From: an uncultured Caulobacterales bacterium
GTDB taxonomy: Bacteria > Pseudomonadota > Alphaproteobacteria > Caulobacterales > Caulobacteraceae
DNA length: 64,000 nucleotides
NCBI GenBank assembly: GCA_903858685.1
Contig: CAIOJR010000101.1
Coordinates: 30,763 to 94,762, forward strand
Reading direction: 5' to 3'
The notes under the pieces are model-generated. The model saw only the letters and a program-made list of their open reading frames with translations, was not told the origin of the DNA and searched no databases. Shown piece after piece: positions 15,339 to 20,124 of this stretch. The position numbers were made by a program, and so were the translations under genes. Numbering within the stretch: position 1 is the stretch's first letter; each line of letters opens with the position of its first letter.

Positions 15339-15548
15339 AAATGGAGGGGCGCAGGCGTGGGCCGGGCCATCAGATCCTAGGCCCGCTGTCAGCTCTTGAG
15401 CAACCGGATGAAGCGACCAAATATTTCAGGCCTCCGCCGCCAAATCGGCTGAACTTGCGGCTATGCAGCCTTTTTGTTGCGGGGCTGTATTGTGCGCGCC
15501 GATGATGATCAAGACGAAACCCACCCCATGCGCCGAGCCAAGCCAATG

Positions 15549-16691
15549 ATGAAAATCGTTCAGTTTCTGCGCATTGTGGCGGTTTCGATGGCGGCGGGCG
15601 TTCTGCTGACCGGCTGTGCGACCTTGCCGCGCGATTCGTTTTCGCTGTCCGAGGACGCGATCGCATCGCCCGCGGGCTTCGCCAATGTCCGGTTTACGGA
15701 AAACTCGCCCGCCCTCACGGCGGCGATGGAAAAGGCGCTGACGCCTGACGCCCATGGCGATGTGAACGCACTGGCCCTGTCGGGGGGCGGCGCCAACGGA
15801 GCCTATGGGGCTGGTCTTGTGTATGGCTGGGGCAAAAGCGGCGCCATGCCGAAGTTCCAGCTTGTGACGGGGGTCAGCACCGGCGCCCTGACCGCGCCCT
15901 TCGCCTTTCTGGGCCGGGACTGGAGCGAGCAACTGCGAAAATCCTATCTGGAGGGCAAGGTCTATGTGTTGCTCAAGGGGCGCGGCCTGCTCAGCCTGAT
16001 CACACCCGGCCTCTTTAGTCGCGCGCCGCTGGATGATCTGGTGCGCGGCTATGTGACGGACGATCTGTTGCGCGCCGTGGCGGCAGAGCACGCCAGGGGA
16101 CGGCGCCTGCTGGTGGCGACCACCAATCTGGATACGGAACAGCTCATCGTGTGGGACATGGGGGCTATAGCGACGCGCGGCGGCGCACCGGCGCGTGAGC
16201 TGTTTGCCCAGGTTCTGGTGGCCTCGGCCAGCGTGCCCGGCGTCTTTCCGCCCAGCCTGATACAGGTGGAGAGCAACGGGCGCCGTTTTGAAGAAATGCA
16301 TGTCGACGGCCAGACCGAAAGCGCCTTTTTCGCCGTGCCGCCGCGCCTTCTTCTGACCAACGCCGCTTCGGCGCAGCCGGGGCGCGTACAATTCTATATT
16401 GTCGTCAACGGGCGTATGGACAGCCTGTTCGCCGTCACGCCGCGCTCGTCCTTGCCGATCCTGGGCCGCAGCTTCGATGTCGCAGCCCGGGCCTCAGTGC
16501 GCCAGATGCTGATTTCGACCGCGGAATTCTGCCGCCGGTCTGGCTGCGCCTTGCATGTTTCGGCCATGCCGGTTGAGCAGAAGGACGATCCGCTCGATTT
16601 TCGCGCCAAGCATATCCGGAGCCTTTTCGCGGGCGGCCAGGCCAGTCTGGACGCTGACAAGGCGTGGCAGGATGTGTCGCAACTGCCCTGA
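15549..16691 (+). CDS. Patatin-like phospholipase, probable lipoprotein
   Basis: Lipobox 'VLLTGCATL'; 'LSGGGANGAYGAGLVYG', nucleophile 'GVSTG'; alternative starts at 15474, 15528 and 15546. Confidence 0.87.
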   Translation: MKIVQFLRIVAVSMAAGVLLTGCATLPRDSFSLSEDAIASPAGFANVRFTENSPALTAAMEKALTPDAHGDVNALALSGGGANGAYGAGLVYGWGKSGAMPKFQLVTGVSTGALTAPFAFLGRDWSEQLRKSYLEGKVYVLLKGRGLLSLITPGLFSRAPLDDLVRGYVTDDLLRAVAAEHARGRRLLVATTNLDTEQLIVWDMGAIATRGGAPARELFAQVLVASASVPGVFPPSLIQVESNGRRFEEMHVDGQTESAFFAVPPRLLLTNAASAQPGRVQFYIVVNGRMDSLFAVTPRSSLPILGRSFDVAARASVRQMLISTAEFCRRSGCALHVSAMPVEQKDDPLDFRAKHIRSLFAGGQASLDADKAWQDVSQLP

Positions 16692-16851
16692 GCCGGTCCT
16701 CATCCGGGCTCATCGCCTGCAAATTAGGCAGACTGACACGACTTGCAGCCTCACGGGCGATTGCACTCCGGGGGCTGGCGTGGTGCATGGACAGGGTGAG
16801 GCCGGGTGAGTAGCTCAGCCCTTAAAGGACGCTTGTCGCAAGGAGACGCAC

Positions 16852-19800
16852 CTGTCGGTCATCGCCGCCCTGCATCATGTCACCCGCTATAGATATGATC
16901 GCCTCGTCCAGCTGGGCCCGCAGGTGGTGCGCCTGCGTCCCGCCCCCCATTGCCCGACCCTGATTCCCAGCTATTCGCTGAAGATCGAGCCCGCCAACCA
17001 CTTCATCAACTGGCAGCAGGACCCGCACGGCAACTGGCTGGCGCGGCTGGTCTTTCCAGAACAGACGCGTGAGTTCAGCATCACGGTGGACCTGACGGCC
17101 GAGATGAAGGTCGTCAATCCATTCGACTTCTTTGTGGAACCCTATGCAGAGGTCATGCCCTTTGCCTATGGCGATGACCTGAAGTCCGATCTGGTGGCCT
17201 TCCTACAGGTCGATGAGGGCGGTCCGGCGCTGGATGAACTGGTGGCGGGGCTGAAGACGGACGGCGCGCCGACGGTCAATTTCCTCGTCGATCTCAATGC
17301 GCGCCTGCAGAGCGAAATCCGCTATCTGGTGCGGATGGAGCCGGGCGTGCAGACGCCGGATCAGACCCTGACGCTGAAATCAGGCTCCTGTCGCGACAGC
17401 GCGTGGCTCCTGGTGCAGATCCTGCGCAAGCTGGGTTTTGCGGCGCGGTTCGTCTCGGGCTATCTGATCCAGCTCAAGGCCGATATCGACCCGATCGAGG
17501 GGCCCCAAGGCACGCGCACCGACTTTACCGACCTGCACGCCTGGGCGGAGGCCTATATTCCCGGCGCGGGCTGGATCGGCTTTGACGTGACCTCTGGCCT
17601 GTTGTGCGGGGAGGGGCATCTGCCTCTGGCGGCGGCGGCGCATTATCGTTCGGCAGCGCCAATCTCGGGGGTGGCCAGCTACGCCGAGACCGAGTTCAGC
17701 TTCGAGATGGCTGTGACGCGGCTGGTTGAACCGATCCGCATCACCAGGCCGTTTGAGGATGCGGAATGGCAGGCTCTGGACGCGCTGGGCGACCGGGTGG
17801 ACGCCGACCTCGTCAAGGGCGACGTGCGCCTGACCATGGGGGGCGAGCCGACCTTCGTCTCCATTGATGATTTCCAGTCGGCGGAATGGAACACCGCAGC
17901 TCTGGGCGACACCAAGCTCGTCATGGCCAGCCAGTTGATCGAGCGACTGCGCGAGCGGTTCGGCAAGGGCGGGATGCTGCACCACGGCCAGGGCAAATGG
18001 TATCCTGGCGAGCCCCTGCCGCGCTGGGCGCTGGGCCTGTTCTGGCGCAAGGATGGACAGCCCGTCTGGCGCGGTCTGGCCGATCACGCCGCGCGCCATA
18101 CGCCGCGCACGCCGGATGCGGGCGCCTTCCTGACCCGGCTGGCGGCGCGCCTGATGCTGGATCCGGCCCATGTGTCGGCGGCGCGTGAAGACCCGCTGCA
18201 CTGGATCCGCACCGAGGCCGATCTGCCGCCTGGCGTCGCGCTGGACGAGGCCGAGCTGGACGGCGCCCTGACCCGCGACACCCTGCGCCGGGCGATGGAA
18301 GGCGGGCTGTCCAAGGCGGTGGGCTATGTCTTGCCCTTGCGCCGCGCCCTCTATGCGCACGAGGGCGATGGTTGGGTCAGCGAGGCGTGGACCTTCGCCC
18401 GCGAGCATCTGTTTCTGATTCCCGGGGATTCGCCGGTCGGGCTGCGTCTGCCCTTGGCGGGCCTGCCGACGGTGGCGCCGGACGACTATCCCTATATTGT
18501 CTCGCCCGACCCGTTCGAGGACCGTGGCCCTCTGCCGGACCTGTCGGCCATTTACGCCCTGACGACGTCCAAGACGGCCATGCCCGCAAAGAAGAGCGCG
18601 AAGGCCAAGCCCTCCATCGTTCGCACGGCCCTGTCGGCTGAGGTGCGAGACGACCACCTCTATGTCTTCATGCCGCCGGTCGCCACGGTTGAGGATTATT
18701 TCGAACTTCTGGCCCATATCGAGGTGGCGGCGCAGGACCTGCCCCTGCGGATCGAGGGATATGCCCCGCCGGACGATGCGCGCGTCGGCGTGTTGAAAGT
18801 GACGCCAGATCCCGGCGTGATCGAGGTCAATGTCCACCCGGCGGCCAGCTGGCGTGAGGCGGTGGAGATCACGACCGGCGTCTATGACGATGCGCGCGCC
18901 GGACGGCTGGGCGCGGACAAGTTCATGATCGACGGGCGCCACACCGGCACGGGCGGCGGCGCGCATGTGGTGATGGGGGCGGCGAGCCCGGCGGACTCGC
19001 CCTTTCTTCGGCGGCCCGACCTGTTGAAGAGCATGCTGGTCTACTGGCAGCGTCATCCGGCCCTGTCCTACCTGTTCTCCGGCCTGTTCGTCGGTCCCAC
19101 CAGTCAGGCGCCGCGGGTGGACGAGGCGCGCCACGATGCCCTTTATGAGCTGGATATCGCCCTGGATTTTGTGCCGCTGCCGGGGGAGGGCGAGCCGCCC
19201 GCGCCCTGGCTGGTCGACCGTCTCCTGCGCAATCTGCTGACCGATGTGGCGGGAAATACTCACCGCAGCGAGATCTGCATCGACAAGCTCTATTCGCCCG
19301 ACGGCTCCGCCGGCCGGTTGGGCCTGCTGGAGATGCGCGGCTTTGAGATGCCGCCGGATGCGCGGATGAATCTGGCGCAGCAACTCCTGATCCGCGCCCT
19401 GATCGCCTGGTTCTGGCGCGAGCCGCAACAGGGGCCTCTGGTGCGGTGGGGAACTGCGCTTCATGACCGGTTCATGCTGCCCCACTTTGTCTGGAGCGAC
19501 TTTCTGGACGTGTTACGGGACCTTAAGAGTGCGGGCTACGCCTTTGATCCCAAATGGTTTGAGGCCCAGCGCGCGTTTCGCTTCCCTGTCCATGGAGAGG
19601 TGCAGTATGGCGGCGTGTCGCTGGAGCTTCGACACGCGCTGGAGCCTTGGCATGTCATGGGCGAGGAGAATACGGGCGGCGGCACGGTGCGCTTTGTCGA
19701 CTCCTCGGTGGAGCGGCTTCAGGTGCTGGCGACCGGCTTCAACCCGGCGCGCCACATCATCACCTGCAATGGCCGCGCCCTGCCCATGACCCCCACGGGC

Positions 19801-20124
19801 GCCTCGCTGCAGGCGGTGGCGGGCGTGCGCTACAAGGCCTGGAAGCTGCCAAGCGGTCTGCATCCGACCCTGCCGGTCGATGCGCCCCTGACCTTCGATA
19901 TTGTGGACAGGGCGAATGGGCGCTCTCTCGGCGGCTGCGTATACAATGTCGCCCATCCGGGCGGACGCAGCTATGACACCTTCCCGATCAACGCCTATGA
20001 GGCCGAGGCCCGCCGCAAGGCGCGGTTCCAGAGCCACGGCCACAGCCCCGGCGATCTGGCGCCCGCGCCGCCGGAGCTGTCCTGGGAGTTTCCAACCACG
20101 CTGGATCTGCGGCGCAAGGGCTGA
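16852..20124 (+). CDS. Transglutaminase-like + DUF2126 protein
   Basis: '[27 protein letters not shown]', '[29 protein letters not shown]', long DUF2126 C-terminus. Frame has no ATG/GTG/TTG between stop at 16807 and GTG 16924; CTG at 16852 has AAGGAG 6 nt upstream. Confidence 0.88.

Follow-up and report, generated by a model that had tools for sequence, protein, structure and literature searches.

CTG is a known rarity among bacterial start codons. In Caulobacter crescentus, starts mapped by ribosome profiling and LC-MS are ATG, GTG, TTG, and CTG in 74.3%, 14.5%, 10.3%, and 0.7% of cases, respectively, and just 24.6% of the genes carry a Shine-Dalgarno sequence (PMC4117421). For bacteria at large, CUG is quoted as 0.024% of start codons, and its output in E. 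coli as 0.86% of that of AUG, both values being cited from other work in PMC11497404. Switches to CUG among close genomes amount to 2 of 61,358 ancestral AUG starts (PMC5622118).

The stretch of DNA analysed here (the window, 64,000 nucleotides) is part of G000, a draft genome of 3.87 Mb from an uncultured Caulobacterales bacterium. One of its genes encodes a protein with the same domain set as transglutaminase-like/DUF2126 proteins (PF08379, PF01841, and PF09899). It is very probable (roughly 0.93) that CTG 16852–16854 is the real start of this gene. What is new is a CTG start that is held across a radiation of genera.

Reading frame, encoded enzyme, and gene neighbourhood

An earlier note, made from the letters of this DNA, had proposed that no ATG, GTG, or TTG occurs between the in-frame stop and GTG 16924, and reading the codons gives zero in that interval. 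The frame is open for 14 codons above CTG 16852 in the window. ORF calling with ATG, GTG, and TTG only sets the start at 16924 and returns 1066 residues instead of the 1090 read from CTG; the loss of about 24 residues anticipated by the note is exactly 24. The AAGGAG motif and 6-nt spacer that it described ahead of the CTG are present (Table 1), and pairing with the anti-Shine-Dalgarno sequence at this position reaches −7.1 kcal/mol over a 6-base match, as compared with −2.4 kcal/mol and no Shine-Dalgarno 4-mer ahead of GTG 16924.

Table 1. Features of the transglutaminase/DUF2126 gene and its probable start site (window coordinates)
Feature	Coordinates	Strand	Basis
In-frame TGA, upstream bound of the reading frame	16807..16809	+	sequence reading
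Shine-Dalgarno AAGGAG, 6-nt spacer (ACGCAC) to CTG	16840..16845	+	sequence, anti-SD pairing, clade GGAG-like motif at −10 to −7
Probable CTG start codon, shared by all 26 genomes sampled from one clade	16852..16854	+	orthologue comparison, tree, pairing
CDS including the stop codon, transglutaminase/DUF2126 amidoligase-like protein of 1090 aa	16852..20124	+	
Bact_transglu_N (PF08379), residues 7–84, begins upstream of the first GTG	16870..17103	+	Pfam
First canonical start codon of the frame, GTG, read as internal Val-25, no Shine-Dalgarno	16924..16926	+	
Transglut_core (PF01841), residues 141–245	17272..17586	+	Pfam
DUF2126 putative amidoligase (PF09899), residues 278–1087	17683..20112	+	Pfam

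All three Pfam matches exceed their curated cut-offs (59.6 bits for PF01841 and 1234.7 bits for PF09899), and a search of NCBIfam gave no match. The score of Bact_transglu_N depends on the start: 86.9 bits with CTG, where the match runs from residue 7, and 55.2 bits with GTG, where it enters at profile position 22. Residues H9, T11, Y13, and Y15, all of which precede GTG 16924, are invariant among 41 homologues. In the AlphaFold model of residues 1–300 (pLDDT 90), the first strand comprises residues 2–26, and the match of the model to 3isr, a transglutaminase-like protein and the nearest solved structure, covers almost the entire length (E 6.9e-18). On the basis of the Pfam gain, the four invariant residues, and the first strand of the model, the 24 residues before the GTG are part of the protein, in line with the conserved N-terminus that the note had placed upstream of GTG 16924.

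These observations bear on the alternative that translation begins at GTG 16924 and that the conserved stretch upstream is untranslated. GTG 16924 is the first canonical codon, and the clade of relatives that carry the CTG often has GTG at codon 24 or 25; these clade GTGs display some anti-Shine-Dalgarno pairing (mean −4.9, a value obtained without spacing control). However, codons 24 and 25 also encode Val, Ile, or Thr and are not always NTG, several relatives have no canonical codon at all near the position of GTG 16924, and GTG 16924 itself is without a Shine-Dalgarno sequence and is preceded by family-invariant residues and the first strand. A start at the GTG is therefore very improbable.

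C180, H229, and D245 are invariant and would constitute the Cys-His-Asp catalytic triad of a transglutaminase. From the family literature, the enzyme likely makes or modifies a peptide via amide bonds, a putative function; DUF2126 is not mentioned in the literature searched.

In G004 (L175, contig C2), two genes come after the transglutaminase/DUF2126 gene, one ATP-grasp/alpha-E-like and the other a second transglutaminase gene, the ATP-grasp/alpha-E-like label being assigned by sequence reading and a known gene association (PMC5666114) rather than by a family search. The corresponding pair in G000 is located on contig C96 (L174), apart from the CTG gene, which in the window is followed instead by a CoA-transferase gene on the opposite strand. 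A patatin-like gene (window 15474–16691) lies just upstream of the CTG gene, while in G004 it is found on the far side of the operon (L175:211–1467), indicating that the neighbourhood has been rearranged.

The start codon among relatives and its origin

The named relatives closest by this gene comprise Caulobacteraceae/Caulobacterales metagenome genomes as well as Phenylobacterium and Caulobacter. Within the family, 390 genomes were considered, and 63 of them carry a close orthologue. In these orthologues and in loci from farther genomes, we read which codon aligns with the window CTG. CTG occupies the exact codon in 26 Caulobacteraceae genomes, window included, which are separate assemblies belonging to genera g1, g7, g14, g20, and g21 as well as one metagenome genome labelled Polymorphobacter (L034). 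The remaining family members harbor TTG (as in the Caulobacter relative L042), GTG, or ATG at this codon or start one codon later, and farther Alphaproteobacteria have ATG, GTG, or TTG at the codon or ATG one codon downstream. Sphingobium C100 (L104) also shows a CTG, but this is coincidental, the real start being the ATG one codon later. In genus g22 of the sister clade, three loci (L146, L147, and L157) have an apparent start one codon later, which is GTG or TTG.

For the tree, 400 alignment columns from the N-terminal part were used and residue 1 was excluded. The 26 CTG rows form one clade with nothing else inside, both in a quick tree and in a careful one (for the latter, bootstrap 100, SH-aLRT 99, and 200 of 200 bootstrap trees), and no reversal occurs within it. 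The sister clade starts mostly with TTG, in addition to GTG and an ATG subgroup. Since TTG predominates there, one TTG-to-CTG transition explains the codons most simply, and CTG probably arose once, in the ancestor of this Caulobacteraceae branch, the direction of the change being deduced from the codons of the sister clade.

Retained in all 26 sampled members, the CTG is thus a start of long standing that has been maintained, and neither a sequencing error nor a fresh mutation. The earlier note had left the choice between a genuine CTG start, which is now strongly supported, and a recent ATG-to-CTG mutation, which does not fit the same CTG in 26 genomes. That the window sequence is a draft in 279 contigs and that distant relatives carry ATG at the start codon would favour either such a mutation or else a mistake at 16852 in sequencing or assembly; however, the identical codon in 25 other genomes of one clade, each assembled separately, leaves these explanations a negligible share of the probability. 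The separate assemblies of the relatives likewise contradict the correction to ATG that the note had envisaged from resequencing. As to its question whether orthologues have ATG at this codon, ATG orthologues exist, yet solely outside the CTG clade.

Start codon versus internal leucine

Among the 31 columns of the clade in which Leu is fixed, the start column alone is 100% CTG, the mean being 69%. In an alignment of 82 homologues with 1,097 codon columns, column 0 alone contains ATG, GTG, TTG, and CTG and no other codon; the 82 rows were picked for NTG at column 0, so what counts in this test is the mixture of all four codons, together with the clade result. Upstream of the CTG, conservation in the clade drops off, the main exception being a GGAG-like block at −10 to −7. 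The mean anti-Shine-Dalgarno ΔG before the clade CTG is −6.45 versus −2.97 in shuffled sequences, and 85% of the clade passes −4.4 versus 23% of the shuffles. Four of the 26 members have a weak Shine-Dalgarno sequence (−2.4 to −3.2). Since this element occurs in just about one in four C. crescentus genes (PMC4117421), its presence is supportive and not required. The 3′ end of the 16S rRNA was not found in the draft genome G000, and other families of the order carry the usual CCTCC.

A further alternative holds that the CTG is an internal Leu codon and that translation starts at an upstream non-canonical codon or enters the frame by frameshift, as the 14 open codons above the CTG in the window would permit. 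This is highly unlikely: four relatives (L115, L119, L126, and L134) have an in-frame stop just 4–6 codons upstream of the CTG, the sequence above it is not conserved except for the Shine-Dalgarno block, and an internal Leu codon would vary to CTC or CTT, as the other Leu columns do. ATC at codon 4 and GTC at codon 3 were considered as near-cognate starts and rejected, neither being conserved in the clade. No start-hiding hairpin was found in the five members folded, the predicted folding being no stronger than that of shuffles (z +0.4 to +1.2).

Two relatives, L134 (G062) and L129 (G061), have in-frame stops 5 and 12 codons upstream of their CTG, respectively. The next ATG, GTG, or TTG is reached at codon 65 or 66, counted from 0, by which point most of the N-domain has been passed. 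A minority of the clade (e.g., L034, L126, and L117) has an in-frame ATG, GTG, or TTG somewhat upstream; thus, some genomes would not be compelled to use CTG. Of the 39 window genes that have same-genus relatives and were surveyed, with the less clear cases judged by eye, this gene alone had no canonical start ahead of its conserved part.

Probable initiation at CTG, its retention, and known near-cognate starts

From the position of the codon, its conservation, the Shine-Dalgarno sequence, and the single clade, all of which are read directly in the DNA, we infer initiation at CTG and a low yield. The AAGGAG would position the ribosome, allowing the initiator fMet-tRNA, whose anticodon mismatches CTG at the first base only, to initiate there. 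Because it is this tRNA that would read the codon, the protein would begin with Met despite the CTG. If little enzyme is needed, a weak start of this kind could be tolerated or favoured.

The initiator tRNA of G000 (L222:215–291, contig C75) retains the C1xA72 mismatch and has A29-U41 where E. coli has G29-C41. The same anticodon stem (TCAGG-CTCATAA-CCTGA) is found in 16 of 21 genomes searched, including L223, L224, and other Caulobacterales. In E. coli, the G29-C41 pair is gripped by G1338 of 16S rRNA, and swapping the neighbouring G30-C40 pair lowers discrimination against CUG in vitro (PMC11497404). It may be speculated that, with the A29-U41 initiator, a CUG start carries a lower cost than it does in E. 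coli; however, the variant is order-wide and cannot account for CTG in this gene.

Why CTG was kept is a separate matter. The start may be real and CTG retained passively, with high G+C disfavouring T and A at the first base and so holding C there, and with weak initiation not itself being selected, an explanation that is compatible with a genuine CTG start, concerns only the reason for its retention, and has about an even chance of being correct. TTG is rare in the Leu columns (42 TTG versus 391 CTG) and is also absent from 5 of 24 other Leu columns, both of which agree with passive retention. On the other hand, C. crescentus starts are mostly ATG despite high G+C (PMC4117421), and sister lineages use TTG or GTG at similar GC3 (0.82–0.95 versus a mean of 0.88), which favours selection over passive retention. 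The rate of start-codon change argues in the same direction: 10 changes are needed outside the clade, stem included, over 8.0 tree-length units and 0 inside over 4.0, whereas about 5 would be expected inside (P ~0.006 in a crude Poisson comparison that treats parsimony counts as events and is only indicative). The conservation of CTG across the radiation thus hints at selection for weak initiation, with G+C bias as a confounder. It is possible, although less probable than passive retention, that CUG is a selected throttle for an enzyme needed at low or conditionally raised levels, with changes to ATG, GTG, or TTG being purged.

A CUG start retained over several genera lends itself naturally to testing whether weak initiation is under selection. 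It also has a practical side: where only ATG, GTG, and TTG are admitted as starts, the enzyme would be called 24 residues too short here and about 65 too short in two relatives, which would lose most of the first domain. Among known systems, infC keeps the near-cognate start AUU in bacteria, where it serves autoregulation by IF3. The CTG gene resembles infC in that a weak start has been retained over long evolution; to our knowledge, no feedback of the infC/IF3 type has been described for the transglutaminase/DUF2126 enzyme. The mapped CTG starts of C. crescentus come from the same bacterial family, and there, too, N-termini needed correction (PMC4117421). Those data are from a single species, whereas here the CTG of one gene is followed through a whole clade.
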